Shown here one piece after another: positions 1-36,965 of a stretch of DNA of 42,278 bases (the stretch's first letter is position 1; each line of letters opens with the position of its first letter). The notes under the pieces are model-generated. The model worked only from the letters and a program-made list of their open reading frames with translations. It was not told the DNA's origin and did not search any database. The stretch is from Leptolyngbya sp. (GTDB lineage Bacteria > Cyanobacteriota > Cyanobacteriia > Leptolyngbyales > Leptolyngbyaceae). Where the stretch lies: NCBI GenBank assembly GCA_003249025.1, contig QBMH01000013.1:1-42278 (forward strand). Direction: 5' to 3'. A program made the position numbers and the translations under genes.

Positions 1-2180
1 ACTCGCCTTGGGCCACAATCTGACGAGCCACCCTGAAAATGAGCGAACCGTAAGTGTTGATACTTCACAGCATCAAACGGTGTCACAGATGGGCTGGGTT
101 CAAAAAAACTGAGCTTCTCCTTTTTGGCAAACTCAATAAAGGCTTCTGCAATGCCGTCTTCCGTCAATCCTTCGTGGTTATACAGGTCATGATCCACCAC
201 CAAATGACCGTGTTCATCTTGCAAGAAATCGCCCTCGACCCCAACCACTCGTTGCACTGGAGAAGGCGGCATCAATTCGCTCAGTTCCTCCTCTTCGGGT
301 GAAGTGGTAGACGAGGTAATCTTGCGCCAGATTTTGTCTCCAGAGTTATCCTTGCCCGACTTCCGCATCGTGGCAAAAAAGATGTTGTAGTCATCCTGGC
401 GAGGGCAGAGTGCGCCTGCTTTGGGGTCGTCGTTCCACTTCTGCACCAACAGCACCGAAGTTTTTGTGCCTGTGTGCGGCTTAAAGGTGTTGCCGTGCAG
501 CCCTACTACTGACAAAATTCGACATCGTTCCGCAATGAAATCTCGAATGTTTTTATCGGAGGAGTTGTTGAAGCGTCCTTGCGGTAGGACTATCGCCATT
601 CGTCCTCCCGGTTTCAAAAAGTCTAGGTTGCGCTCAACAAACAAAATGTCGCGCCCCACTTTGGTTTGCCACTTGCCATCGGGCTTTTTTGCCAGGTCAT
701 AGCGGGCAATCATGCGCGGTTCTTTGATGTCTCCAGCAAAGGGCGGATTTGCCATCAATACATCAAACTGAAACTCTCGATAGTCTTTACTGCCTTTGGG
801 TCGCAGCTTTTTCAGCCGCTTAAACCCCTCATGGTAAATATCATCCCAATCGTCTTGTTCGGTGACTTCATCCCACAGTTCATAATCCAATGTGTTCAGG
901 TGCAACACATTGGTTTGCCCATCCCCTGCAATCAGGTTCAGCGTCCGCGCTACCCGCACCGCCTTTTCATCAAAGTCGATCGCAAACACCTTGTCTTCCA
1001 CATACTCTTTGCATCGGGGCGGCTTGTCTTCCAGCGAAAATAAATGACTCGCTTGCAAGCCCTCATCATCCAAAATTTGCCGCCACACATGAAAAATCGT
1101 ATGTACCGGAAACCCCGATGAACCCGCTGCTGTGTCGATCATGTACTCATCCTCTTGGGGATTGAGCATCTTCACACACAGATCAATCACATACCGGGGC
1201 GTGAAATACTGTCCTTTTTCACCCTTGCTACTCTGGTTGATCAAATATTCAAAGGCTTCATCAATCACATCCAGGTTGGAGTTAAACAGCTTCACATTTT
1301 CCAACGACGACACACACACCGACAAGTGAGAGGGCGTAAGGCTAATCTTGGCATCCTCACTAAATACCCCTTCCCACTTTTTCTTGGCTTTGTCGAACAG
1401 ATCCTGAATCTTGGTTTTCAGGGCTGCTTCCGTTTGCCCCGTGTTGCGAAACTCTAGAGAACGGGTCGATCGCCGGGTTCCCTGCCCGGAATACCACTCA
1501 TCATAAAGCTTGGTGAAAATCAGCTTAAACAGTTCCTCAAATACATCGACCCCGGCATTTGCCAGCACCTCATCTTCCATTTCTTCGATCAACGTTTTGA
1601 GGGATTTGTTCTCCTTCACCAACTTGTCATTGACAATCAAATCTTCCAACGTAAACTTGATCTGGAGAATATCCGCCAGGGTTTGATTCGCATTCGGCAG
1701 ATCGGGGATATCTTCAAAATAGTTGGGGTCTTTGCGCTGGTAGTAAGAGATTTGATCGCCATTTGTCCAGACTGCGATCGGGGCACCTGTGGCATTGCAG
1801 TACGATCGCAACTGATCTTTACCATCCTTCAGCTTCGGCTTCTTTAGCTCCACCAGCATATAAACGGTAGTGGGACGATCTTTATCCATCACCACAATGT
1901 CTGCTCGTTTCACCTCGCGCCCAAAGTTCACCCCATACTCGACCTGAATCCGACTGAGGGGATAGTGCAGGCGATCGGTCAAAATCTGTAGATATAGCTG
2001 CCGGATCGCTTCCTCTGGCGTGAGCCTAATTGCCTTCTGGCGGACTAGACAAACCGTATAGGGAACGTCGCCGCTTTTAGTTGGCTTCAGGGTGATCGTC
2101 TGCTCGAATTGCTCAATTTCAGCGATCGTAAACTGCGACAGCTTGTAATTTGAGTCTTTGAGAATGTCGGCTAATTTCAT
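1..2180 (-). CDS. Type I-like DNA adenine methyltransferase with HsdR-type N-terminal domain (partial, runs off left edge)
   Basis: The reading frame is open from the ATG at 2180 to the window edge, about 726 codons with no stop. Residues 1-130 resemble the HSDR_N domain, with a PD-(D/E)xK-like set (D94 in RADIVVMD, E111 and K113 in VELKKPK). An alpha-helical linker follows, then the N6-adenine methylase domain: QYFTPRYVIDL just before the SAM motif DTAAGSSGF (349-357), and the catalytic motif NPPF at 478-481. These features identify a SAM-dependent N6-adenine DNA methylase of the HsdM type, expected to modify adenines as part of a restriction-modification system. Any specificity or nuclease gene would lie beyond the left edge. 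It starts 24 bp after the stop of the large glycosyltransferase gene, with an AGGA 14 nt before the ATG, so it may be read from the same transcript. Whether the N-terminal domain cuts DNA is unknown. Confidence 0.88.
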   Translation of the reverse strand, partial: MKLADILKDSNYKLSQFTIAEIEQFEQTITLKPTKSGDVPYTVCLVRQKAIRLTPEEAIRQLYLQILTDRLHYPLSRIQVEYGVNFGREVKRADIVVMDKDRPTTVYMLVELKKPKLKDGKDQLRSYCNATGAPIAVWTNGDQISYYQRKDPNYFEDIPDLPNANQTLADILQIKFTLEDLIVNDKLVKENKSLKTLIEEMEDEVLANAGVDVFEELFKLIFTKLYDEWYSGQGTRRSTRSLEFRNTGQTEAALKTKIQDLFDKAKKKWEGVFSEDAKISLTPSHLSVCVSSLENVKLFNSNLDVIDEAFEYLINQSSKGEKGQYFTPRYVIDLCVKMLNPQEDEYMIDTAAGSSGFPVHTIFHVWRQILDDEGLQASHLFSLEDKPPRCKEYVEDKVFAIDFDEKAVRVARTLNLIAGDGQTNVLHLNTLDYELWDEVTEQDDWDDIYHEGFKRLKKLRPKGSKDYREFQFDVLMANPPFAGDIKEPRMIARYDLAKKPDGKWQTKVGRDILFVERNLDFLKPGGRMAIVLPQGRFNNSSDKNIRDFIAERCRILSVVGLHGNTFKPHTGTKTSVLLVQKWNDDPKAGALCPRQDDYNIFFATMRKSGKDNSGDKIWRKITSSTTSPEEEELSELMPPSPVQRVVGVEGDFLQDEHGHLVVDHDLYNHEGLTEDGIAEAFIEFAKKEKLSFFEPSPSVTPFDAVKYQHLRFAHFQGGSSDCGPRR

Positions 2181-2204: not shown

Positions 2205-5200
2205 TTACGGCGTAACAATGGTGCTGAGAAGATCCGCAAAGTCTTTGGTGACCGTTGACCAGGGGCGCGATCGCAACCAGTCGGCGCTGGCAAGGCTGCG
2301 CTGCTGCGCTTCAGCCCGATGAGTATAAAGATATTCCAGGTTTTCCACCAGTTCTTCCACATCCGATTCACCCCAGCCTTCCACACCGACCAACTCGGCG
2401 GATGCTTTGACTCGGCGTTGCGATTGCAGTGGGAAGCCCAGGTTTTGTTGAGTCAAATCCCGGTTGCCCGTGTTGTTGGATAGCACCGTTGGCACCCCGC
2501 AGGCAAGGCTAGCGATCGCGCTGTGGTTAATGCCAGCTTCACAGCGACTTGGAAAAACGGCAACATCGACTTGGTGCAATACTTGACCCAGCAAGGCATA
2601 AGCCACAGGTTCAAGCACCAGAAAAGACTCTTTGGGCAATCCGTTTTGACTTAGCCATTGAGAGGTTTCAAGCTGTCCATATGGGTTGAATTCTGGCGTT
2701 CCGATGACATGATGGGCATGATCCAGACCTTTCAGAGAATCGCTATCTGCCCACCAAGAGGTTAACAGTAGTGCATCAGGATGGCGAGTATGAAAGGCTT
2801 TAAATGCTGCAATCAAGATATCCTGACCGTGGGTATAGCTCAATCTGCCAGGGGAAAAGATGACAAAGCGATCGCTCAACCAATCGCCCTTCTTGCTGGG
2901 ATAAAACAAGGTTGGATCAATGCCTTGGAGCCACATTTGAGAGACTTCCAGTCCGTAGCTTCTGAGCAGATCCGCATTCCAGGTGGAAGCCGTGATGATT
3001 GCCCGACAGGATTTTGCGGCTGCCAATGCTGGGTTATCGAGGTGCGTATCTTCTAGAGTGACCAAGGCAATGGTTTGCTGTGGATCGGCAGGCGGACTAG
3101 CGGCAATGGGCGTAAAGCCATCGGCGATCGCCTGTAGCCGTATTCCATTTAATTCATCACTGTTTTCTGTTTTGAGCGATCGCAGCAGCGCCATTTCCAG
3201 CGGAGTCAAATTACTAGAGGCAGCTAACGGATGCTGAAGCGCAGGCGCAAACTGGGAATGGTGCCGCAAGTGCAATGCCAATTGCGTTCCTAAAATGCCC
3301 CAGTCGGTGAGTCCGTTGAGATGCCAGGAAAGAGAAATGGCGAGTGGCGAGTGGCAAGTGGCGATGGGATGTTCGGCGTGAAGCGTACGGTGTGCGGTAG
3401 GCGGTGTTTGCACTGCATCATTTGCCGATTGGGATGGGTCATTTGCACTGCGTAAGGGATCACTCAAAGTGCGTTCTAACTCGCGCCGAATGTGCTGCAT
3501 CACGCTGTGCCAATCGCCGGGTTGGGGTTGCCGGAATAGGCGGAGGGTGGGATACCAGGGGCTATCGGTGCGATCGCACATCCAGCGCCAGTCGGGAGCA
3601 AAGGCTAAAAGTACCCACACGGGTTTTCCGAGCGCTCCGGCGAGGTGAGCGACGGCAGTATCGACGGTGATGATCAGGTCTAGCTGGGCGATCGCGCAGG
3701 CTGTATCCGCAAAGTCCTGTAGCTCCAACCCAACATCATGAACTGGCAATTCAGCAGTTAACTCGGCGGCGGCATCTCCTTTTTGCAGGCTGTAAAAGGC
3801 GACGTTTTCCAGGTCAAATAAGGGCTGAAACTGCTCCAAGCGGCAGGAGCGGAAGCGGTTGTTGCGGTGATTGGGGTTGCCTGCCCAGACAAGACCCACT
3901 TTGAATTGACGATTTTCGATTTTCGATTTTCGAGTGGATGAGGAGACCAAATGGTCTTTCTCTATTCGACACTCGACACTCGGCATTCTTAACTCGACAC
4001 TCGGCACGGGCAGGTAAGGAATATCGGCGGGAATAGTATCGAGGGTGGTGCCGAGGATACGGGGTAGGTTGAGCAGGGGCGCGTGGACATCAAAGGGCGG
4101 CAGTAGGGCATCTTGGGAAATCAGTTGATCGATGCCGGGGGTGTTGGTCAGCAGGCGCAGCAGGGGTTCCTGGCATTCCACAATGACTCGTCCGCCATAG
4201 GCTTTGACGAGGGGCGTATAGCGGATGAATTGCAGGGTGTCGCCCATGCCCTGTTCGGCGTGGAGCAAAATGGTTTTGCCATGCAAGTCGCCGCCATCCC
4301 ACTCTGGCTGCGTAAACGGGCGGACTGCCCAGCCTTCTTGCTGCCAACGCCATTGATATTCCACAAATCCGGTGGTGAATTCGCCTGTCAGTAACAGGGC
4401 GTGTCCCAGATTTTTGTGAGCATTGACGAAATCGGGCTGGAGCGCGATCGCCCGACGATAAGCCGCGATTGCTTCGGGGATGCGATTCGATCGCCGCAGG
4501 GCAAACCCCAAGTTATAGAAGGCATCCGGTGAATCCGGTCTGACTGCCACGACTTGTTCGGCATGTTGCACTGCCGCTTCTGGACGGTTCAGATCCAACA
4601 GCGCCACGCTCAGATTTTGATGTACATTCGGATTGGCAAGATTCAGCGCCAGCGATCGCTCATAGCAGGCGATCGCGTCCTCAAACTGCTGCTGTTCTTG
4701 CAGTGCGCCGCCCAAGTTGCCCCAGCCTTCCGCAAAATCTGGCTGGAGATTGGTTAAATGACGCAACTGGGCGATCGCCTCTTCATACCGCTTCGTCTGG
4801 CACAAAATCACGCCCAACACATGCAGCGCATCCGCTTGATCCGGCTGTTGCTGCAAAATTTGACGATAAATTTGCTCCGCCTCGGCTAAGTTGCCGTTGT
4901 GATAGTGCTGTAAAGCGGTGGAAAGGAGTTCGGGCGTTTGGAGTTCGAGGTTCGGGGTTCGGGGTTCGGGGTTCACACTCCGTACTTCGTACTCCGCACT
5001 CTGCACTTGGTTCACACTCCGCACTCCATCCTCCGCACTCCGCACTTGATTCGCACTCCGTACTTCTTCCAAGGCTATTCTGACCTGCTGCAACACGCTG
5101 TCCCAATCTCCGGCGGTGGGCTGGCGGAAAATTTGCACGGTGGGATACCAGGGGCTATCGTCGCGGTGCAGCATCCAGCGCCAGTCGGGGGCAAAGGGCA

Positions 5201-8200
5201 ACAGCAGCCAGGTGGTTTTACCTAAGGCTCCGGCAAGATGAGTGACGGCAGTATCGACGCTGATGATCAGATCTAACTGCTGAATCAGGCTGGCAGTATC
5301 TACAAAATCGGTCAGCAAGTCGCGCAGATCATGCACTTGAGGATGCGATCGCAGCAAAGTTTCATCATTATCAACCAGATCTTTTTGCAAGCTATAAAGT
5401 TCTATTCCAGGTAAATCTGCCAGCGATAGCAAAGATGCGAGCGGCACAGCACGATTGCGATTGTAGGGATTTCCAGTATTACCAGACCAAACCAAACCGA
5501 TCTTGAATTGCGGATGACGAATTCCGAGTTGCGAACGAGTGACTTCTTCTTTCTGTGGGAATTCACCATTCGGCAATCGACATTCGGAACTGGCTGGATT
5601 GAGGTATGGAATGTCGGCGGGGACGGCTTCCAGGGTGATTCCCAGGATGTTGGGTAGGCTGAGCAGGGGAGCTTGAATGTGATAGGGCGGTGGGGCGCTG
5701 CCGTAGGGAACCAGAGTTTCTACGCCGGGGAGAGTTTTTAGCAGGTTGACCAGAGGGGGATGGCATTCCAAGATCACACGCCCGCCAAGCTGCACAACCA
5801 AGGGCACATAGCGGACAAATTGAATCAGGTCGCCCATCCCCTGTTCTGCATGGAGAAAGATTATTTGCCCATTGAGCGGGGAGCCATCCCACCGAGGACC
5901 GGGAAAGTCGCGCAGAGATTTGAAGCTGGGCAGGTTGACGTGTTTGCGCCATTCATATTCCGCAAAGCCACGCTCTAGATCGCCGCCCACTAATAAAGTT
6001 AAAGCTTTGTTCCAGTGCGCCTCCGAAAAATTGGGTTCGATCGCGGTTGCCTGGTCGTAATACTGAATCGCGGTTTGCAGGTCGCCTTCATCCCGAAAGA
6101 TATTGCCCCAGTTATTGTAGGCTTTGGCGTAATCGGGTTTGAAGCCGATCGCCTGTTGATAGTAAACGGCAGCTTCGGCAAAATTGCCCATCTCTTTCAG
6201 GGCATTACCTAAATGGTTCAGCGCTTGGGGGAAGTTGGGACGCAATGCCACAGCTTGCCGATAGGCAACAGCGGCTTGCTCGAAGTTGCTCATGGCGTAG
6301 TAGGCAAGCCCCAAATTGTTGTGAGCATCGGCGTAGGTAGGGTTTGCCGCGATCGCCTGCTGGTAATGCTGCACCGCTTCTTCCAAGCGCCCCTTTTCCC
6401 GTAGGGCATTGGCGTAATTATTGTGGGCATCGGCATAGTCGGGCTTCAGCGCTAATACTTTCTGATAATGGGCGATCGCGTCATCAAACTTGCCCTGTTC
6501 ATGCAACGCAACTGCCAGATTGTTGTAGGAGTCGCAATGGGTGGGATCAGCCGCGATCGCCCGTTGATAGTGGGCGATCGCCTCATCCAAGTTGCGCTCC
6601 TGATGCGCCATCAGTGCCAGCAGATGCCAGCCATCTGCCAGATCTGGCTGTTGCTCCAGCACCGCTCGACAAGTCTGCTTTGCCGCTTCAATGTCTCCCG
6701 CTTGATGATAACGAACTGCGACCTTGAGCGATTCGGGCAACGTGGATTTGGGCTGAGATATCGGGTGTCGGGTGTCAGGTGTTGGGGGGAAGTTTTGTAA
6801 GTCCTGCGGACTGGCTTTGCCCACGCGTAGCGTTCCCGCAGGGAATATTTTGTTCGCGTCAGCGGCGCTTTGCGCTTTTGAGTGTTGAGTGGAAGAAAGA
6901 GAATGAATGGGAGCAGACTTTACATCAATCCCTTTGCCCTTCTGTTTCTTGCTCTTTTTCTTCCCTCTTTCCTCTTTCCTCTTCCCTCTTTCCTCTTCCC
7001 TTTTTCCTAAAACCTGAAACCTGAAACCTGAAACCTGATCTCTGTCCCTTAATGCCGCTTTCACTTCCACTAAAACGGTTTCCCAGTCGCCATAGCTAGG
7101 CTGACGAAGTAGACGCATGGTGGGATACCAGGGGCTATCAGTGCGATCGCACATCCAGCGCCAGTCGGGAGCAAAGGGCAACAGCAGCCAGGTTGGTTTG
7201 CCTAAGGCTCCGGCAAGATGAGCGACGGCAGTATCGACGGCAATGATCAGATCCAACTGCTGAATCAGGGCGGCAGTGTCGGTGAAGTTATCCAGCCGCG
7301 ATCGCAAATCTTGAATTTCTGGATGGGCTTGCAGTAGTGCCACATCTTCGGGCTTGGGTTCTTTTTGCAGGCTATAGAGGGTTACGCCAGGAATTTCGGC
7401 GAGGGGAAGCAGTAATTCTAGGGGGCAGGTGCGCGATCTATTGTAGGGATTTTGGGGGTTGCCATCCCAGACGAAACCAATCTTAAATTGCGACTGATGA
7501 ATTGCTAACTCGCCTCTTGCCCCGTTCGGCTGAGCGCTCACGTCGAAGCCTTGCCCCTCGCCATTCACTACGGATAGATAGGGAATGTCAGTCGGGATGG
7601 TTTCGAGGGTGGTGCCGAGGATATAGGGCAGACTCATCAAGGGCGCGTGGACATCGAAGCTAGGCAATGGGGTGCCGTAGGGAATGATTTGTTCGATGTG
7701 GGGAATGGCTTGCAGCAGATTAACCAAGGGCGGGTGGCATTCCAGGATGATATGTCCGCCTTGCTGAGCAACCAAGGAGACATAGCGAATAAATTGAATG
7801 GTGTCGCCCATACCCTGTTCGGCATAGAGCAAGACGGTTTTGCCATCCAATGGGGTGCCATCCCAGCGGGGTTGGGTAAAGTTGCGGGAAGGGTTTTGCT
7901 CAATAAACTTGCTCCACTGAAACCGCTGCTCGTATCCAGCAAAGCCAGTTTTCAGGTCGCCAATCAGCAGGTAATTGAGGGCTTTATTCCAGTGTGCTTC
8001 AATAAAATCGGGCTTGAGTTCGATCGCGCGATCATAGGCAATAAAAGCAGCATCGAGATCACCAGAGTTGCGCCGAGCAATACCCAGATTATTGTAGGCT
8101 CCGGCAAAGTCGGCTTGGGTGGCGATCGCCTGGGCAAAATGCTCAAAGGCTTCGTCAAATTCGCCAATATATTGCAGCATGTTGCCCAGATTGCTCCGCA

Positions 8201-9437
8201 CTTCGGCAAGCTCAGGCTTCAGTTCAACGGCTTTGCGGTAGCAGGCGATCGCGTCTTCTAAGCGATCTAGTTCTTGGTAGGCATTGCCCAAATTATTATG
8301 GATTTCTGCAAAACCGGGCTGAAGCGAGAGCGCCTGTTCCAGGTAAGAAATTCCTTCTACGTTTTTTTTCTGATCTCGCAGTACGGCTCCCAAATTGCTC
8401 AAAGCTTCCACAAAATTGGGGCGCAGTTCTAAAGCACGGCGATATTCAGCCACGGCTTCATCTCGCTGACCCAAGCGTTGGAGGGCATTACCCAAGTTAT
8501 TGCAGGCTTCCGCATAGGTGGGGCGGAGTTCCAGCGCTTGACGATAGGAGGCGATCGCTTCTTCGGTGCGATCGCTTTCCAGCAAAAGATTGCCCAAGTT
8601 GTTGCACACACCAGGATAGTCAGGACGGATGACCAGCGCCTGTTTAAATGCCGCGATCGCCTCCTCCACCTTCCCCTGTTCTTGCAGCACCATCGCCAGA
8701 TTATTATAGGTTTCGGCAGAGTCAGGTTTTAGGGTTAGCACATGGGTAAACTGGGCGATCGCTTCGTCTAACTTGCCTTGCTGATGTAGAGTCGATCCCA
8801 AGCTGGTATGAGCATCCACGTAAGTAGGCTTGAGGGCGATCGCCTGCCGAAAATAGTCAATTGCTTGGTCAAGTTTGCCCTGAAGCCGCCAAATAATACC
8901 GAGATTGTGATGGGCTTCCACATAATTAGGCTTCAGGCGTAGCGCGGTCTGATAGCACGAAATCGCCTCGTCTAACTTGCCTTGCTCCTTATAGCTAATA
9001 CCAAGATTGTTGTGGGCTTCGGCATAGTTGGGGTTCAGGGCGATCGCATCGCGGTAACAGGCGATCGCGTCCTCCGCACTGCCGCTTTCCTTTAAGGCAT
9101 TCCCTAAGTTGCTCATCACCTCTGGCTGGTTGGGTTTCAGCGCCAGCGCCTTGCGGTATTGCTCCACCGCTGCTGAATAGTTCCCTTGCGCCTTCAGCAC
9201 GATCGCCACGCTGTTATGCGACTCAGCGGCGGGTCTTAAGGTCAATACCTGCTCAAAATAGGTCAGTGCTTCATCATAACGACCCCGTTCATGCAGCAAT
9301 GCCCCCAGCAAATTAAGCGCATCAATCGATTCGGGCTGCTGTTGTAAGAGCGATCGATAGACCTGCTCAGCTTCAGCCATGCGTCCGGCTCTTTGATGAT
9401 CGAGGGCAGTGGTAATTGAAATCGGCGCTTGGTTCAT
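2205..9437 (-). CDS. Giant TPR / glycosyltransferase polyprotein (2410 aa, three TPR-GT modules plus a terminal GT4-like domain)
   Basis: Module 1 has about 15 TPR units (residues 1-515) and a heptosyltransferase-like GT domain (about 520-780, with AEQGMGDTIQF and DLIIAVDTAVAHLAGALGKP). Module 2 has about 8 TPRs (905-1145) and a second GT domain (about 1180-1440). Module 3 has about 6 TPRs (1505-1680) and a third GT domain (about 1710-1970). The C-terminus (about 2040-2410) is a different, GT4-like glycosyltransferase (FSPGRLSYTHGQDIL; FPSRCEAG; ACGVPTVLSN). The three GT domains share the AEQGMGD motif and the end motif PDWRWM, so they arose by duplication. Linkers near 800-900, 1456-1504 and 1988-2034 are low-complexity and encoded by short tandem DNA repeats. 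The likely role is glycosylation of proteins or surface polysaccharide, with TPRs binding partners; the substrate cannot be told. The ATG at 9437 is the first possible start. No signal peptide is seen. Confidence 0.9.
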   Translation of the reverse strand: MNQAPISITTALDHQRAGRMAEAEQVYRSLLQQQPESIDALNLLGALLHERGRYDEALTYFEQVLTLRPAAESHNSVAIVLKAQGNYSAAVEQYRKALALKPNQPEVMSNLGNALKESGSAEDAIACYRDAIALNPNYAEAHNNLGISYKEQGKLDEAISCYQTALRLKPNYVEAHHNLGIIWRLQGKLDQAIDYFRQAIALKPTYVDAHTSLGSTLHQQGKLDEAIAQFTHVLTLKPDSAETYNNLAMVLQEQGKVEEAIAAFKQALVIRPDYPGVCNNLGNLLLESDRTEEAIASYRQALELRPTYAEACNNLGNALQRLGQRDEAVAEYRRALELRPNFVEALSNLGAVLRDQKKNVEGISYLEQALSLQPGFAEIHNNLGNAYQELDRLEDAIACYRKAVELKPELAEVRSNLGNMLQYIGEFDEAFEHFAQAIATQADFAGAYNNLGIARRNSGDLDAAFIAYDRAIELKPDFIEAHWNKALNYLLIGDLKTGFAGYEQRFQWSKFIEQNPSRNFTQPRWDGTPLDGKTVLLYAEQGMGDTIQFIRYVSLVAQQGGHIILECHPPLVNLLQAIPHIEQIIPYGTPLPSFDVHAPLMSLPYILGTTLETIPTDIPYLSVVNGEGQGFDVSAQPNGARGELAIHQSQFKIGFVWDGNPQNPYNRSRTCPLELLLPLAEIPGVTLYSLQKEPKPEDVALLQAHPEIQDLRSRLDNFTDTAALIQQLDLIIAVDTAVAHLAGALGKPTWLLLPFAPDWRWMCDRTDSPWYPTMRLLRQPSYGDWETVLVEVKAALRDRDQVSGFRFQVLGKREEERGKRKEERGKKKSKKQKGKGIDVKSAPIHSLSSTQHSKAQSAADANKIFPAGTLRVGKASPQDLQNFPPTPDTRHPISQPKSTLPESLKVAVRYHQAGDIEAAKQTCRAVLEQQPDLADGWHLLALMAHQERNLDEAIAHYQRAIAADPTHCDSYNNLAVALHEQGKFDDAIAHYQKVLALKPDYADAHNNYANALREKGRLEEAVQHYQQAIAANPTYADAHNNLGLAYYAMSNFEQAAVAYRQAVALRPNFPQALNHLGNALKEMGNFAEAAVYYQQAIGFKPDYAKAYNNWGNIFRDEGDLQTAIQYYDQATAIEPNFSEAHWNKALTLLVGGDLERGFAEYEWRKHVNLPSFKSLRDFPGPRWDGSPLNGQIIFLHAEQGMGDLIQFVRYVPLVVQLGGRVILECHPPLVNLLKTLPGVETLVPYGSAPPPYHIQAPLLSLPNILGITLEAVPADIPYLNPASSECRLPNGEFPQKEEVTRSQLGIRHPQFKIGLVWSGNTGNPYNRNRAVPLASLLSLADLPGIELYSLQKDLVDNDETLLRSHPQVHDLRDLLTDFVDTASLIQQLDLIISVDTAVTHLAGALGKTTWLLLPFAPDWRWMLHRDDSPWYPTVQIFRQPTAGDWDSVLQQVRIALEEVRSANQVRSAEDGVRSVNQVQSAEYEVRSVNPEPRTPNLELQTPELLSTALQHYHNGNLAEAEQIYRQILQQQPDQADALHVLGVILCQTKRYEEAIAQLRHLTNLQPDFAEGWGNLGGALQEQQQFEDAIACYERSLALNLANPNVHQNLSVALLDLNRPEAAVQHAEQVVAVRPDSPDAFYNLGFALRRSNRIPEAIAAYRRAIALQPDFVNAHKNLGHALLLTGEFTTGFVEYQWRWQQEGWAVRPFTQPEWDGGDLHGKTILLHAEQGMGDTLQFIRYTPLVKAYGGRVIVECQEPLLRLLTNTPGIDQLISQDALLPPFDVHAPLLNLPRILGTTLDTIPADIPYLPVPSVELRMPSVECRIEKDHLVSSSTRKSKIENRQFKVGLVWAGNPNHRNNRFRSCRLEQFQPLFDLENVAFYSLQKGDAAAELTAELPVHDVGLELQDFADTACAIAQLDLIITVDTAVAHLAGALGKPVWVLLAFAPDWRWMCDRTDSPWYPTLRLFRQPQPGDWHSVMQHIRRELERTLSDPLRSANDPSQSANDAVQTPPTAHRTLHAEHPIATCHSPLAISLSWHLNGLTDWGILGTQLALHLRHHSQFAPALQHPLAASSNLTPLEMALLRSLKTENSDELNGIRLQAIADGFTPIAASPPADPQQTIALVTLEDTHLDNPALAAAKSCRAIITASTWNADLLRSYGLEVSQMWLQGIDPTLFYPSKKGDWLSDRFVIFSPGRLSYTHGQDILIAAFKAFHTRHPDALLLTSWWADSDSLKGLDHAHHVIGTPEFNPYGQLETSQWLSQNGLPKESFLVLEPVAYALLGQVLHQVDVAVFPSRCEAGINHSAIASLACGVPTVLSNNTGNRDLTQQNLGFPLQSQRRVKASAELVGVEGWGESDVEELVENLEYLYTHRAEAQQRSLASADWLRSRPWSTVTKDFADLLSTIVTP
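3339..3368. repeat. Heptamer-type repeat inside linker 3 of the TPR/GT gene
   Basis: Near-heptamer units (gcgagtg, gcgagtg, gcaagtg) run in tandem within the coding sequence and encode part of the linker between the third GT domain and the terminal GT4-like domain. Confidence 0.6.
3905..4012. repeat. Short tandem repeats inserted in GT domain 3
   Basis: Two repeat families are adjacent: gattttc-type units (3910-3931) and cgacact-type heptamers (3967-4006). They encode a loop between DIPYLPV and QFKVGLVW. The same loop in GT domains 1 and 2 also carries extra, unrelated residues. Confidence 0.65.
4921..5070. repeat. Heptamer repeat tract encoding linker 2 of the TPR/GT gene
   Basis: Units of the ggttcgg family (about 4945-4975) are followed by cactccg-type units (about 4975-5070). 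On the minus strand they encode a serine/valine/arginine-rich stretch of near-heptads such as VRSANQ, VRSAEDG and VRSVNQ, joining GT domain 2 to TPR block 3. Confidence 0.75.
6755..7040. repeat. Composite repeat tract encoding linker 1 of the TPR/GT gene
   Basis: This tract contains gggtgtc-type heptamers (6757-6785), a palindromic element around acgcgtagcgttcccgcag (about 6818-6855), pyrimidine-rich tttcctc/ttccctc heptamers (6945-7010) and aacctga heptamers (7010-7040). The pyrimidine tract encodes exact heptads of charge (KREEERG, KRKEERG). The 15-mer CCTGACACCCGACAC, read on the minus strand here, also occurs in the spacer before lipA (38452-38483). Confidence 0.8.
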
Positions 9438-13509: not shown

Positions 13510-14589
13510 ATGCACCAGCTTGCCAGCAAAGTAAAAGTTTCACCGAAGGTATTTACAGCAATCGTGATCGCAGCACTAGGAATTCTAATTTTAGGTTGCT
13601 TGGGCTACCGTTTATATGGACAGCACCAGACGCTTCAAGACTTTGGCAAACAGATTCAATCACTGCCAGCATCTGTTCCCCCTGAAGAGAAACTTAAATT
13701 AGAGAAAGAGCGCATTGCGCTAGAAAGTACGCTCACAAGCACTCTGGCTCAAATCCTTACGGGTGGATTTTTCTTTATCACTGCGTATTTTACTTGGGGA
13801 AACCTTCAAGTTGCTAATGCAAAACAAATCACTGAACGGTTCACCCAAGCCATTAACCAACTCGGAAGTGAAAAAATCGAAGTCCGGTTGGGTGGAATCT
13901 ATGCCCTGGAGCGAATCGCTAAAGATTCACCAAAAGACCACTGGACTATTATGGAAGTTCTGACCGCATTTGTGAGGGAGCGATCGCCTGTTTCAATCCT
14001 GCAAAATGAAGACAGCATACAGCCTAAGATTACTACTGATCTACAAGCGGCATTAACCGTCATTGAACGACGTAATCTAAAAAAAGAAGAGCCTCACCAG
14101 CGCATTAATTTAAGCAGGGTATACCTCAACCGTGCCGACCTCAGAGGTACTAACCTCAGCAGTGCCAATCTCAGACGTGCCAGCCTCCACTGTACCAACC
14201 TCAGTGGTGCCGACCTCAGCGGTGCTGATCTCAGTGGTGCCGACCTCAGTGGTACTAACCTCAGCAGTGCCGACCTCAGAGGTACTAACCTCAGCAGTGC
14301 CGACCTCAGAGGTGCCAACCTCAGTGCCAACCTCAGCTTTGCCGACCTCAGTGCCAACCTCAGCTTTGCCGACCTTAGCGTTGTCAATTTTAGCGGTCCT
14401 AACCTCAGCGATGCCGACCTCTCCTCTTTTATCCCCGGCACTGCTGCTCGGAATTGGACTGAAGAACAGCTTGCCGCAACCAAACTTTGTAACACTAGAT
14501 TGCCAGAAGGGTGCAATTTGAACCCGAACCGAGACTGTGAAGCACTGAGCATCTCACTCGACCCATTTGCAACAGAATCACCTGAGTAG
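13510..14589 (+). CDS. Membrane-anchored pentapeptide-repeat protein
   Basis: This is a 359-aa protein. A transmembrane helix lies at about residues 14-34 (VFTAIVIAALGILILGCLGY) and a second hydrophobic segment at about 80-98 (LAQILTGGFFFITAYFTWG). A conserved block follows (FTQAINQLGSEKIEVRLGGI, then YALERIAKDSPKDHWTIMEV, about 119-160), typical of a cyanobacterial family in this setting. Residues about 197-310 are pentapeptide repeats of the A(D/N)LSG type that should fold as a right-handed quadrilateral beta-helix. The repeats lose register at NLSANLSFADLSANLSFADL, where units are shortened. A cysteine-containing tail ends the protein. The function is unknown. The frame opens at the ATG at 13510; an AGGG lies a few bases before it. 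Confidence 0.85.
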   Translation: MHQLASKVKVSPKVFTAIVIAALGILILGCLGYRLYGQHQTLQDFGKQIQSLPASVPPEEKLKLEKERIALESTLTSTLAQILTGGFFFITAYFTWGNLQVANAKQITERFTQAINQLGSEKIEVRLGGIYALERIAKDSPKDHWTIMEVLTAFVRERSPVSILQNEDSIQPKITTDLQAALTVIERRNLKKEEPHQRINLSRVYLNRADLRGTNLSSANLRRASLHCTNLSGADLSGADLSGADLSGTNLSSADLRGTNLSSADLRGANLSANLSFADLSANLSFADLSVVNFSGPNLSDADLSSFIPGTAARNWTEEQLAATKLCNTRLPEGCNLNPNRDCEALSISLDPFATESPE

Positions 14590-15106: not shown

Positions 15107-15742
15107 TTAAGCTTTAACCGCAGCACGACGACGGCGATAAGCCGCTAAACCCGCTCCAGCTAGCGCCAAGCCTGCCATGGTGCTAGGTTCAGGAGCCGCC
15201 GCAGAGCTTCCGCCCGTGGAACCCGTGGAGCCACCCTCGGTAAAGTAAACGCTGATGTGAGAGACATCTTTGGTATTACGGACATCAAAGAGGAGTTTTT
15301 CAAACGGTGAAGTCCAAGTCCCAGAGGTAACTCCCTTTTCCAGTTGATAGCCAACTAATGAGGTGCCTGTTCCGCTTTTGAAGACTAGCATCGCGTTTTG
15401 CCAGGTTGGCTGAAAAACTTGAGCGATATTCCAGAGACCCTGTTGTCCAGATCCGTTACCGCCGTAACCCGCATTTTCGCCAATCTTGCCGCCAAAATTC
15501 CAGTTGGTGAGTCCAAAAAAGCCTTCTTCGTTGACGGTAAGCGGCTTGCTAGGAGTAACAGAGTCCTGAGTTGCGGTATTGCTATACTGGCAACCAGATG
15601 ATCCAGAGACATTATCAGCAGTGCCAGAAGGGCAACTAAAGGTTGCTGCATGAACGGGAGCCGTGGCAACAATGCTAGCAGCGATCGCAGAGCCAACAGC
15701 AGCGAAAGCAGTTGCAGAGGAAGTAGAGAAAGTGCGTTTCAT
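15107..15742 (-). CDS. PEP-CTERM sorting-domain protein, exported
   Basis: This 211-aa protein has a signal peptide (MKRTFSTSSATAFAAVGSAI..., likely cleaved after APVHA at about residue 32). The mature region is rich in Gly, Ser and Thr with two early cysteines. The C-terminus is the classic tripartite PEP-CTERM signal: PEPSTM, hydrophobic AGLALAGAGLAAY, then RRRRAAVKA. Such proteins are recognised by an exosortase, cleaved and usually delivered to the surface or extracellular matrix; no exosortase is in the window. AAGG lies 6 nt before the ATG. The gene has its own spacer and terminator, so it is monocistronic. The exact role of the mature part is unknown. Confidence 0.92.
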   Translation of the reverse strand: MKRTFSTSSATAFAAVGSAIAASIVATAPVHAATFSCPSGTADNVSGSSGCQYSNTATQDSVTPSKPLTVNEEGFFGLTNWNFGGKIGENAGYGGNGSGQQGLWNIAQVFQPTWQNAMLVFKSGTGTSLVGYQLEKGVTSGTWTSPFEKLLFDVRNTKDVSHISVYFTEGGSTGSTGGSSAAAPEPSTMAGLALAGAGLAAYRRRRAAVKA

Positions 15743-28307: not shown

Positions 28308-28842
28308 CTAATTTACCGCTAGCCGTTTGAGCATCAATCGGATAAAGCAAAGATTAACCTTGGCAGTAGCATTGTCCAGGGTTCTCTCAAAGTTCTTGAC
28401 CAAACTCTTACAGCGTTCCATCCAAGCATTCGATCGCTCAATGACCCAGCGGGTTGCCACGACCACAAATCCTGTTTTCCCTTGGGCAACTTTTTCAGCC
28501 TTGATCGGCTTGGGAGCTAGTTCAAATTGAATCTTGGTCATAATCTGTGGATAAATCGGCTCTAAGGCTTCGGTGAGCTTGTCCGGGTGATACCCGTTAT
28601 CTAGCAGAATCGTCAGCTTCTCTAAATCGTCAGGTCTAGCCTTGAAGTAATCGATGGTGTGCTTGAGCATTTCAATTAACCCCTGGTCATCGCTGACGTT
28701 GGCTTTAGTGCAGTGCGTGAAAAGGGAAATCCCAGGGTATCGACCGCCAAATGTCGTTTGATGCCATTGGTGCATTTGTAGAAACAAAACCCTTTCGACT
28801 CGATGCTCGCGTTACAGGTGTTTTGCACCGCTTGTGAATCAA
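28308..28842 (-). pseudogene. IS5-family transposase, C-terminal part, frameshifted
   Basis: This continues the transposase after the A8 run: LLLIDSQAVQNT (first catalytic Asp) and ASIESKGFCFYKCTNGIKRH. It then breaks at about 28715-28725, where LGFPF and FTHCTKANVSDDQGL lie in different frames. The rest holds the second Asp (ILLDNGYHPDKL) and the Glu (WVIERSNAWMERCKSL), ending LKRLAVN 15 bp from the left tip. The second break is not in a slippery run, so this copy is probably inactive. Confidence 0.8.
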
Positions 28843-29235: not shown

Positions 29236-29967
29236 GTGATCAAAGGAATTGGTGTAGTCACCTGTGTCTATGTCAATCCTGAGTTGAATGAGTTCTGGTT
29301 CATTGATTACCGGATTTACGACCCAGCGGGAGACGGCAAAAGCAAACTGGAGCATGTGCGGGAGATGTTGAGTCACACGGTCTATCACAAGCAAGTGCCG
29401 TTTGAGGCGGTGCTGATGGACACCTGGTATGCGACCAAAGACCTGATGCTGTTGATTGAGTCACTCCAGAAGACCTATTACTGCCCCCTGAAAGACAATC
29501 GCCAAGTCGATGATTCAGGGGGACAACAGCCTTATCACCGAATCGATGGACTCGATTGGAGTGCGGCAGAACTTGAACCAGGCAAATTGGTCAAAATCAA
29601 GGGCTTTCCTAAAGACCACAAGGTACAGTGTTTCCGGGTTGAGGTGTCTACCCACCGCACGGACTTCGTCGTCACCAACGATTTGGCTCAAGATTCTACA
29701 GAGGCAACCCAACAGGCGTGTGGCTTCCGTTGGAAAATTGAGCAACTGCACCGAGAAGGAAAGCAGGTGACTGGGTTAGAGGCTTGCCAGTGCCGCAAAG
29801 CACGGATTCAGCGTAACCACATTGGGTGTGCATTCCTGGTTTGGGTCAAACTCAAAGGGTTAGCGATTCAAACGGGTCAAACAGTTTATCAACTTAAGCA
29901 CGGGTTGCTTGATGATTACCTTTGTCAGCAGCTTAAAAGTCCAGCGCTGAAGATGACTTTTGCCTAA
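29236..29967 (+). pseudogene. IS701-like transposase, C-terminal part
   Basis: This 243-aa frame begins inside the catalytic domain (KGIGVVTCVYVNPELNEFWF). It keeps the second acidic residue (VLMDTWYATKDLM) and the final Glu (FRWKIEQLHREGKQVTGLE), and ends CRKARIQRNH...LKMTFA at the element tip. The N-terminal part with the first catalytic Asp is absent; the IS5-type insert sits just upstream. It cannot transpose by itself. Confidence 0.75.
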
Positions 29968-33663: not shown

Positions 33664-33887
33664 GTCACTCTCCCAAAATCACCATACCTGCGGCGATTAT
33701 ATCAGGGTCGGAGTCAGGCGATTGCCATCCGAAGTACGTTTTATTTGAGTTTGAAGAAACAAGTAGAGCAAGTCATCAATAACTATTGATCAGCTGATCA
33801 GCCCAGGCGATCGCCGACTCTAAATAAATTGACAGGCAAGATAGTTTCGGCTAGAAATACGGGAAGTGTGTTTTGAGGGATCAGGCA

Positions 33888-36800
33888 ATGAGAAGACGAT
33901 CGCATTGCGTCTACGGTGGTTTACTATTTGCGATCGCGATCGCCCATCCTGCAAAAGCACAGCCCAATGAAGTTGCTCCCATTCCCACCAGCACTAAAGC
34001 CGCTGATCTAGTGATTACGCCACGAGTTGGGGTCGGCTACACCACTCCAGGCGGAGGCTACGACGGTTTTGCCAATATTCAAGGCTTTATTCCCCTGATG
34101 CAAACTCCCGGCAAAAGTTTGCTGTTTTTGGATGGGCGATTTTTGCTAGATAACAATGCCAATCCCGGCGGCAGCCTAGTTTTAGGTTATCGCGCCTATC
34201 AATCCGCCGCAAATCGAATTTATGGTGCCTATCTTGCCTACGATAACCGCGACACCGGCTCCAACGTATTTTCTCAAGTGGGGCTGGGACTGGAAACCTT
34301 GGGCGAAGGGTGGGATGCGCGAATCAATGGCTACATTCCCGCTGGCAGTACCCGCCAAACGGTACGAGAAACCGCGATCGCATCCAATTACGCAGTCAGC
34401 AGTACGCGCTTTCAAACGAACTCGCTGCTGGCATCGGGCACCCGCCAACAGTTGACCATCCGCGATGTGGAAGCAGCGATGGCAGGGTTTGATGCCGAAG
34501 TCGGCGGCAGACTGGTTAAGTTTCCCGATGATGGCGGCGACCTGCGGGGCTATGGCGGATTGTATTACCTGAGTGCGGCGGGTAGCCCCCGCGTGGGGGG
34601 GGTACGGGGCAGGTTAGAGGCACGGGTGACAGATAATTTATTGCTGGGCGTTGCGGTGCAGCATGATGGGCTGTTTGGCACCAATGTGTTTGGCACGATC
34701 TCCCTGACGTTGCCAGGAGTGCGTCCTAAAGGAGCCGCGCCCAAATCGCTGCTGGCACGGATGGCGGAATCTCCAACCCGCATCGGCACGATCGCGATCG
34801 ATCAGCAGCGCGAAATCACTAACATTACTGCCCCCTTCACTGATTTAGCGATCGACAATCCAGCAACCGGACAACCCTATTTCTTTCAACATGTGATTGT
34901 CGGACGGAGCGGTGGCGATGGCACCTTTGAAAACCCATTTGGCATTGTGCAATCTGCGTTGAATGCAACGCGATCAGATGGTAATTCGATTGTGTATGTG
35001 CAGGCTGGCAATAATTCAGGAATTCCTGCCTTTACGGTGCGCGATCGCGTCCAAGTATTGTCTACCTTTCCAGCCCAAATCATTCCTGCCGCCTTTCAAG
35101 GACAGCGAATTCCCGACTTGCAATTGCCCTTATCGAATCTGGGTGCCATTCGTCCCAACGTGACGGGCACTGTCACCATGCAAAACGACACGGTGCTATC
35201 GGGATTCAACATCACCAGTGCAACCGGAGCCGGAGTCACCTTTAGCAATGTCCGCAATGTGGAGATTCGAGATAACGTCATCAGCAATACCGCCGATGCC
35301 GGAGTTCTTGGCAATGGCGTAAACACCCTACTGCTATTGCGAAACCAGATTAATCGTGCCACCAATCAGGGAGTCTACATCCAAAATGCTAGCGGCACGG
35401 TGAATCTGATTAGCAATCAAGTAAGCGGTACGGTGGGCGGCACCACTACGATTTCTAACCCAATCACCAACGATGTTTCGTTCACCAATCCGCTGGGCGG
35501 CGGCGTGATTACCATTCCCAATCCTGGGAGCATTATTCCTCTTCCCAGCGGTCAAGGCATTGTAGTCGGTTCAGTCAACGGCACCACGAACATTCTGGAT
35601 AACACGATCGTAAATACCGCGACTCAAGGAATTGTGGTGCTGAATGCAACGGGCAATTTAGCGATCGCCAATAACTCCATAGCAAACACCATCGGCGCAG
35701 ATGCACCCGTCACCGTTCCCACCATTGGCACCCTCAATATTCCTTCTGGGCAAGGCATTGTGGTCGGTGGCGCAAACGGCACCACTAATATTTCTGGAAA
35801 CACCGTCAGCAATACCCGTGGACAGGGGCTTACCCTTGCTGGAGCCAGCGGCACCGTGACGATCGCCAACAACACCCTGACGAAAACCCTCGATCAAGGA
35901 CTCACCCTCGCAGGCACCGCCGCAACCGTATCCATTACCAATAACCTCATCTCAGAGGTGGGTACTCGTGCCTTTACCACCCCGCCCATTGCCGCGTTAG
36001 GCGGAGTTGCGTTCAATATTGCCACCGGTCAAGGCATCTTTGTTGCAGGCGCAACGGGTAGCCTGACGATTTCTAACAACACGATCGAGCGCGTGGATGG
36101 CAGCGTGCCTGTGAACCCTTTACCGATTCCGCCCGGTGGACAGGGGCTAGTGTTGGGTAACTTCTCTGGGCAGCTTGATTTCACCCTCAGCAACAACCAA
36201 ATTCGGAATAATTTCAATGATGGCGTATTCATGACCTTTGCCAACACCGCCACCGCAACAGTCACAATTCGCGGCAATACGATTGAGAATAATGGAATTT
36301 TGCCTACGCCTGTACCCATTCGGGGGGATGGAATTGCGATCGCTGCCGATCAAAACGCCAGCATCAGCAACTTGCTCATTGAAAACAACCTGATTCAAAA
36401 CAACGGCGATGATGGTATTGATCTCCGGCTTGGTTCCCTCTTTCCCTTGGGTGCTGCAAATGCTCAAGTCACCGGAAACATCCGCAACAACACTGTCACT
36501 ATCAACACCACGCCCCTTTTAGCCAATACGTTTGCAGGGATTCAAGTGGAAGCACGAGGCAGAACCGAAGCCCGAGTCACCATTGAAAACAACACCGTTA
36601 ATGCCAATAATCCTGCGGCTCAAGCGATTAATCTACAAACCTTTGGCGTTACTCCTATATTGGTCTTTCTAGTGGGAGGCAGCAATCCCTTGATTTCTGC
36701 CAATGTTCGATTCAATACGTTGACGGGACCGGGTAATCCTGGCTTTCGTGCCCTCACTGGTTTAGACAACGTGCCCCTGAATTTTGCATTCAACAACCCA

Positions 36801-36965
36801 CAACGACTTTGCGTCAATCTGAATGGCAACAGCAGCTTAGTTGGAGGCTACACGCTAGCCAACAATGCTGCATTTGGCGCAGGTTCTCAACTGCAAGTGG
36901 TTTTGGGCGCAAACACCGGAGCCGTAACCCAAACCAACACCACCGCTGTGGGCACGTGTCCTTGA
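33888..36965 (+). CDS. Outer-membrane beta-barrel (inverse-autotransporter-like) plus right-handed beta-helix protein
   Basis: This is a protein of about 1025 aa. A signal peptide (MRRRSHCVYGGLLFAIAIAH, cut near AKAQ) precedes an N-terminal ~250-residue domain with alternating strands and motifs such as GGSLVLGYRAYQ, YGAYLAYDNRD, QVGLGLETLGEGWDARINGY and IPAG, which recall the inverse-autotransporter barrel of intimin/invasin. From about residue 315 a parallel beta-helix begins (GGDGTFENPFG), with many PbH1 turns of the form NxIxNTxxQGIVVxxxxG. It is probably an outer-membrane-anchored surface protein exporting a beta-helix passenger, perhaps binding or cleaving polysaccharide. The ATG at 33888 has GAGGGA 7 nt upstream, so it is chosen over a TTG at 33873. 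No catalytic site is identified. Confidence 0.85.
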   Translation: MRRRSHCVYGGLLFAIAIAHPAKAQPNEVAPIPTSTKAADLVITPRVGVGYTTPGGGYDGFANIQGFIPLMQTPGKSLLFLDGRFLLDNNANPGGSLVLGYRAYQSAANRIYGAYLAYDNRDTGSNVFSQVGLGLETLGEGWDARINGYIPAGSTRQTVRETAIASNYAVSSTRFQTNSLLASGTRQQLTIRDVEAAMAGFDAEVGGRLVKFPDDGGDLRGYGGLYYLSAAGSPRVGGVRGRLEARVTDNLLLGVAVQHDGLFGTNVFGTISLTLPGVRPKGAAPKSLLARMAESPTRIGTIAIDQQREITNITAPFTDLAIDNPATGQPYFFQHVIVGRSGGDGTFENPFGIVQSALNATRSDGNSIVYVQAGNNSGIPAFTVRDRVQVLSTFPAQIIPAAFQGQRIPDLQLPLSNLGAIRPNVTGTVTMQNDTVLSGFNITSATGAGVTFSNVRNVEIRDNVISNTADAGVLGNGVNTLLLLRNQINRATNQGVYIQNASGTVNLISNQVSGTVGGTTTISNPITNDVSFTNPLGGGVITIPNPGSIIPLPSGQGIVVGSVNGTTNILDNTIVNTATQGIVVLNATGNLAIANNSIANTIGADAPVTVPTIGTLNIPSGQGIVVGGANGTTNISGNTVSNTRGQGLTLAGASGTVTIANNTLTKTLDQGLTLAGTAATVSITNNLISEVGTRAFTTPPIAALGGVAFNIATGQGIFVAGATGSLTISNNTIERVDGSVPVNPLPIPPGGQGLVLGNFSGQLDFTLSNNQIRNNFNDGVFMTFANTATATVTIRGNTIENNGILPTPVPIRGDGIAIAADQNASISNLLIENNLIQNNGDDGIDLRLGSLFPLGAANAQVTGNIRNNTVTINTTPLLANTFAGIQVEARGRTEARVTIENNTVNANNPAAQAINLQTFGVTPILVFLVGGSNPLISANVRFNTLTGPGNPGFRALTGLDNVPLNFAFNNPQRLCVNLNGNSSLVGGYTLANNAAFGAGSQLQVVLGANTGAVTQTNTTAVGTCP

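Follow-up and report, generated by a model that had tools for sequence, protein, structure and literature searches.

A chain of three TPR–GT9 modules with a degenerate GT4 cap in Leptolyngbya sp., a candidate FlmG-type protein O-glycosyltransferase

Glycosylation of flagellins in Caulobacter requires FlmG, a protein of 596 aa, which binds flagellins via its TPR N-domain and glycosylates them with the help of a 288-aa glycosyltransferase C-domain; its gene adjoins flmH (PMC7591256). In cyanobacteria, Ogt was shown to glycosylate the pilin PilA (PMC12288463). For GumH, a member of the GT4 family, a modelling preprint places the first Glu of the donor site near the anomeric carbon, the second Glu in contact with the ribose, and Arg/Lys in contact with the diphosphate (PMC13104830). 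Cyanobacterial protein O-glycosylation is poorly mapped, and no TPR-GT9 proteins of cyanobacteria were found in the literature searched, which covers part of the literature only. Here, we describe such a protein, encoded in a stretch of 42,278 nucleotides of a Leptolyngbya sp. genome (contig QBMH01000013.1; the whole stretch is called the window). It is proposed, with a probability of about 0.5, that the protein is a cytoplasmic multi-module FlmG-type protein O-glycosyltransferase with a pseudo-GT4 cap.

The open reading frame lies on the minus strand, from the ATG at 9437 to the stop at 2205-2207, and consists of 2410 codons with no internal stop. An AGGGAG-like ribosome-binding site is located about 10 bases upstream of the ATG. 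No Rfam families or tRNA were detected in the window. The domain order in the chain is TPR15–GT9–TPR8–GT9–TPR6–GT9–GT4, and its features are:

2205-9437, minus strand: complete polyprotein gene, 2410 aa, ATG at 9437 (ORF reading)
7917-9428, minus strand: module 1 TPR array, 15 units, aa 4-507 (TPR HMM and eye)
7050-7916, minus strand: module 1 GT9 domain, aa 508-796, conserved 'GD' Asp at aa 545
6741-7049, minus strand: linker 1, aa 797-899, with heptanucleotide arrays at 6952-7038 and 6761-6786
5940-6740, minus strand: module 2 TPR array, 8 units, aa 900-1166 (TPR HMM and eye)
5067-5939, minus strand: module 2 GT9 domain, aa 1167-1457, conserved Asp at aa 1203
4929-5066, minus strand: linker 2, aa 1458-1503, nearly all heptanucleotide arrays (4928-5064)
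4341-4928, minus strand: module 3 TPR array, 6 units, aa 1504-1699 (TPR HMM)
3468-4340, minus strand: module 3 GT9 domain (GT9-3), aa 1700-1990, conserved Asp at aa 1733, GT9-like fold
3910-4007, minus strand: GT9-3 inter-lobe loop, two heptanucleotide arrays, aa 1819-1841 predicted disordered
3363-3467, minus strand: linker 3, aa 1991-2025, predicted disordered
2205-3362, minus strand: GT4-family cap, aa 2026-2410, degenerate donor site

The first-pass annotation had counted about 29 TPR units, split 15/8/6, together with three paralogous glycosyltransferase domains and one GT4-like domain, with no strand given, and this layout was confirmed. An HMM purpose-built from the polyprotein scores 25 TPR units (13/6/6), and degenerate first or capping units recognized by eye (aa 4-37, 479-507, 900-933, and 1138-1166) bring the total to 15/8/6, that is, 29. 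Pfam scores all four transferase domains above the cut-off: the three modules reach 22.8, 22.5, and 27.2 bits for Glyco_transf_9 (PF01075; cut-off 22), and the C-terminal 385 aa, which form the cap, reach 37.7 bits for Glycos_transf_1 (PF00534; cut-off 26.4). The PF01075 matches are marginal and confined to the C-lobe in all three modules. Single-sequence searches against solved structures gave no matches and the GT9 sequence profile gave matches at chance level only, so the structural GT9 assignment is carried by the fold search, in which the AlphaFold model of GT9-3 (pLDDT 84.7) is best matched by 3tov, WaaF (1psw), WaaC, and TibC, with modest TM values of 0.5-0.55. The invariant Asp of the GT9 'GD' motif, which we take to be the counterpart of the WaaC catalytic Asp, was found in 57/57 modules, including all three of the window. 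The other GT9 core residues (second-lobe Asp, His, DWRW, and WYP) are kept in 56-58 of 58 modules and the C-lobe DT..H motif in 57-58 of 58. Pairwise identity among the three window GT9 modules is 52-58%, and their core motifs show no between-module difference predicting distinct donors. Judging from these motifs, all three GT9 modules are apparently working; their catalytic residues are intact, whereas the motifs of the GT4 cap are lost.

The profile of the cap family aligns with PimB' (3okc) at the RxxxxK and second-Glu positions. In an alignment of 68 relatives from outside the clade (cyanobacteria to alphaproteobacteria) with 11 clade rows from 8 distinct genomes, the second Glu of the EX7E motif is kept by 66 of the 68 outside relatives and replaced by Ala or Gln in 8/8 clade genomes. 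The Glu of GKLE, kept in 67/68 outside relatives, is lost throughout the clade (8 genomes), and where 67/68 outside relatives keep the Lys of RKGQD, the window has H2203, with R2198 retained. The window cap reads GRLSYTHGQD at the site where relatives have GKLEYRKGQD, and CEAGINHSAIASLACG where they have CEGGTNLVAMECMACG. The diphosphate-binding pair is partly lost in the window and in most other clade genomes; the Lys or the first Glu is gone in some of them, and the pattern of loss varies by genus. Comparison with the sister species indicates that the cap is under purifying selection (dN/dS 0.145; C-lobe 0.108), and no second copy of this GT4 was found elsewhere in the genome at E <= 1e-20. 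The missing EX7E Glu speaks strongly, if indirectly, for inactivity, as some glycosyltransferases with altered motifs remain active. Since the donor motifs are lost, yet the domain is constrained and has no second copy, the preferred reading is that the cap is probably a pseudo-glycosyltransferase whose active site has been lost. The earlier proposal of four sugar transferases in one chain is thus not supported, as the cap has no ribose-binding Glu in any of the 8 clade genomes.

The C-terminal GT4 domain is present in 13 of the 39 relatives searched. Ahead of it, Phormidesmis has one GT9 module, other cyanobacteria two to three, Microcoleus and Trichodesmium five (3157-3353 aa), and the genome G028 six (3553 aa). 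The five- and six-module chains of Trichodesmium, Microcoleus, and G028 (L034, L026, L056, and L101) carry an apparently canonical GT4 domain. In the module tree, module 1 of the window (M1) clusters with M1 of three other genomes (99/94) and module 2 (M2) with M2 of two other genomes (100/99). M1 and M2 are joined (100/98) and M3 is separate (97/96, focused tree); the tree is weakest at M1 of the genome G018 and at the exact M2 group. On these trees, M1 and M2 are sisters and M3 is a separate, older branch. As M1 groups with M1 and M2 with M2 across genera, the M1/M2 duplication is older than these genera, and a gradient of the 15/8/6 type, common to several genera, is inherited and not recent. 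The idea of serial duplication and trimming can therefore be kept only in part: the modules are paralogous, but the event is old, M3 stands apart, and the gradient is inherited across genera. Recent serial duplication within the species was rejected on the basis of the module trees. The Microcoleus modules and most Trichodesmium/Okeania modules fall in groups of their own, which implies independent amplification. Multi-module fusion also arose outside cyanobacteria. Two alphaproteobacterial chains were observed, one of 1704 aa with three GT9 matches (L088:13632-18743) and one of 2199 aa with four (G043 contig C19:129249-135035).

The debatable issue with a chain of this kind is whether it exists as one protein. 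The genome of the window is a draft in 407 contigs, the linkers are repeat-rich, and contigs of the sister genome end near linker 1 and inside module 3, so that an assembler might have fused separate genes or collapsed repeats. However, the same layout with similar TPR counts was found in four further genera (G012, 2370 aa; G014, 2462 aa; G018, 2237 aa; and G023, 2400 aa). Three of these genomes are drafts, and G023 is a genome in one contig that contains the full-length chain. By the window-derived TPR profile, the architecture of all four is TPRx12-13-GT9-TPRx6-GT9-TPRx5-GT9-GT4; in two more genomes (G002 and G017) the chain is truncated at contig ends. No in-frame ATG was found within the linkers, and their few GTG/TTG codons lie inside repeats or have no convincing ribosome-binding site, which argues against separate genes. 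An assembly artefact is hardly credible and was rejected, as the layout recurs in several genomes, one of them single-contig; the first-pass reading of a single 2410-aa chain is upheld. The dN/dS values against the sister species are 0.07-0.15 for the covered parts, which comprise module 1, the cap, and one half of GT9-3; module 2 was not recovered from the sister-species assembly.

The linkers themselves invite another explanation. Tandem arrays of 7-bp units lie at 6952-7038, 6761-6786, 4928-5064, 3910-4007, and 3338-3364, in the inter-module linkers and the GT9-3 inter-lobe loop, and in none of the 806 residues of the TPR arrays. A 907-aa model has pLDDT <50 in two stretches, the GT9-3 loop and linker 3. 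At the threshold used, arrays were seen in 5 of 8 clade genomes and in none of the other three, and their units vary among the clade genomes (CAGGAGG, CAGAAAC, ATTCAAA, ACTCGAA, and others). Compared with the sister species, the array of the GT9-3 loop is identical and the content of the linker 3 array wholly different. Some of the arrays turn over fast and nevertheless keep the frame. Over 705 kb sampled from the genome, tandem repeats most often have period 7, with 57 arrays, 24 of which lie in ORFs of at least 150 aa. The polyprotein gene has five arrays, where the rate in other ORFs would predict about 0.26, a post-hoc comparison. A bias of coding heptad arrays to 21-bp in-frame periods was considered and set aside, as there was no clear difference (4/21 in ORFs vs 3/29 between genes). 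A paralogous TPR-GT9 protein (L109:2348-5260; G000 contig C385, minus strand) has a 14-copy heptanucleotide linker followed by an FkbM methyltransferase domain, which makes it a second fusion built on this plan. One-unit slips of 7 bp would shift the frame, and for slips at linkers 1, 2, and 3 the product would end near 837-839, 1517-1551, and 2049-2074 aa, respectively, giving one-, two-, or three-module products and cells that switch module number. Such a phase-variable enzyme would agree with the differences in array units and lengths that two linkers show between the sister species. However, the arrays are short, at 3-11 copies, and their units imperfect, the genome has many similar arrays between its genes, and the full frame is kept in every intact genome seen, which makes phase variation improbable. 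A long shot, at best, is the extension in which the linkers are functional slippage switches that set module number, the glycan load of a surface protein varies within a clone, and the pseudo-GT4 occurs only in full-length chains. The simplest account is that tolerant linkers were colonised by a genome-wide repeat process.

The link to FlmG comes from alphaproteobacteria. In five alphaproteobacterial genomes, the GT9 (A3) profile gave 6-20 TPR-GT9-type matches per genome. In a Phenylobacterium MAG, this profile matched a 611-aa TPR-GT protein with an E-value of 1.2e-25; it adjoins FlaF, two flagellins, a GNAT acetyltransferase, and a cytidylyltransferase, and it is 30% identical to the modules, with the GD Asp aligned. 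This protein fits an FlmG-type flagellin glycosyltransferase, identified by synteny and length and not by comparison with the Caulobacter sequence. Three alphaproteobacterial loci (L048, L055, and L066) have homologues of the cap adjoining FliK, FlgD, and/or FlgE genes. Two of these loci, L048 and L055, also carry several TPR-GT9 genes, with GDP-sugar genes in L048; in L066 there are a GT41 gene and a single TPR-GT9-methyltransferase gene. In flagellated bacteria, these components sit in apparent flagellar glycosylation islands, and in cyanobacteria they are fused. The earlier suggestion that the acceptor is a protein bound by the TPRs is supported as likely, since the modules are homologous to a TPR-GT protein encoded beside flaF and flagellin genes. 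A Flagellin_N search of the window's genome found no flagellin; the acceptor is therefore not flagellin and the protein is not FlmG itself. By analogy with the pilin-modifying Ogt, a pilin or another surface protein may be the acceptor, which is a plausible guess.

The genomic neighbours do not name the acceptor. No acceptor or donor gene adjoins the polyprotein gene in the window, and no conserved neighbourhood pointing to an acceptor was seen in the four cyanobacterial loci read, where the sole recurrent genes, shared by two genera, are moeA and one for a TPR-GT2-methyltransferase. At L183:1158-3020 and L185:4005-5876, a TPR-containing GT2-methyltransferase protein (Pfam on L183 only) is encoded beside moeA, downstream of the polyprotein. 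Other genes of the window include an ORF at 3-2180 (minus strand), cut by the contig edge, that joins an HsdR_N-like domain and an N6 DNA methylase and is possibly a fused restriction-modification gene. A pentapeptide-repeat protein is encoded at 13510-14589 (plus strand), with an N-terminal segment that seems membrane-spanning by eye, and a small exported protein at 15107-15742 (minus strand), with a PEP-CTERM-like tail, APEPSTMAGLALAGAGLAAYRRRR, recognized by eye and no Pfam match. Two DDE transposase ORFs, possibly remnants, lie at 28308-28787 (minus strand) and 29236-29967 (plus strand), and a 1030-aa right-handed beta-helix protein, called with a TTG start, at 33873-36965 (plus strand), with a weak inverse-autotransporter beta-domain match.

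In the proposed multi-module FlmG-type O-glycosyltransferase, for which we infer catalysis, the protein acceptor, and the cytoplasmic site, the TPR superhelix of each module would hold a protein acceptor and the GT9-fold (GT-B) transferase would add a sugar. The disordered linkers would tether the modules, which would allow repeated or multi-site modification of a single acceptor or of an array of similar ones. The cap would go back to an active GT4 enzyme that was separate and belonged to a glycosylation cluster of this type, and the pseudo-GT4 may be retained in the clade for structure, acceptor binding, or regulation. In line with the first-pass annotation, the modules could also act in turn, so that a fixed oligosaccharide grows on the TPR-bound protein by one different sugar per module, with one residue added by the GT4. 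The divergence of the three GT9 modules, their long-fixed order, and the distinct branch of M3, which might use another donor, agree with such a scheme, but the broken donor site of the cap makes the GT4 step unlikely and the core motifs predict no donor difference, so we regard it as rather doubtful. Somewhat less likely again is that the chain makes a polysaccharide or lipid-linked glycan, a multi-GT enzyme for a capsule or cell-wall polymer with the TPRs as a scaffold, like the capsule multienzyme 8qoy. The latter is the best fold match of the model of M3 plus cap (TPR-GT9-GT4), and the GT9 family includes LPS heptosyltransferases; however, the two structures superpose loosely over several domains (TM 0.23, rmsd 29), export and capsule genes are absent nearby, and relatives sit amid flagellar and TPR-GT genes. 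The next fold matches of the same model after 8qoy are the TPR protein glycosyltransferases SPY and OGT, which favours the proposed O-glycosyltransferase.

The family offers chains with one to six FlmG-like modules and thus a direct route to asking if the number of modules determines how long the glycan is or how many sites are modified. The cap forms a natural series from a stand-alone GT4 enzyme, through a fused domain with intact motifs, to an apparent pseudo-enzyme, and the linkers are an example of non-triplet repeats turning over in coding DNA with the frame preserved. The heptanucleotide GGGGATT SSRs of Nostoc (PMC4692102) are similar in period 7, variable copy number, and genome-wide spread, but they lie mostly between genes and belong to a single G-rich type, whereas here many unrelated units form in-frame protein linkers. 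The cap resembles the GT4 enzymes PimB' and GumH in its Glycos_transf_1 match and its profile alignment with PimB', and differs from them in the absence, in the window, of the second EX7E Glu and the diphosphate-binding Lys. The GT41 proteins OGT and SPINDLY, including the PilA-modifying cyanobacterial Ogt (PMC12288463), share the combination of a TPR superhelix and a GT-B transferase acting on proteins, but their GT family differs from that of the GT9 modules; the polyprotein has no match to GT41 PF13844, whose only match in the genome is a separate GT41 protein on contig C377. WaaF, WaaC, and the protein heptosyltransferase TibC are the best fold matches of the module and share its GD Asp and C-lobe DT..H, but they are without TPR arrays and not multi-module, and the sequence similarity of the modules to this family is near the Pfam cut-off. 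FlmG (PMC7591256) shares with the modules an N-terminal TPR array directly followed by a GT-B domain of about 290 aa, the homology being that of the Phenylobacterium protein identified by synteny. FlmG is a single module with a flagellin acceptor, whereas the window protein fuses three modules and a GT4-derived cap, which makes it a variant of this system.
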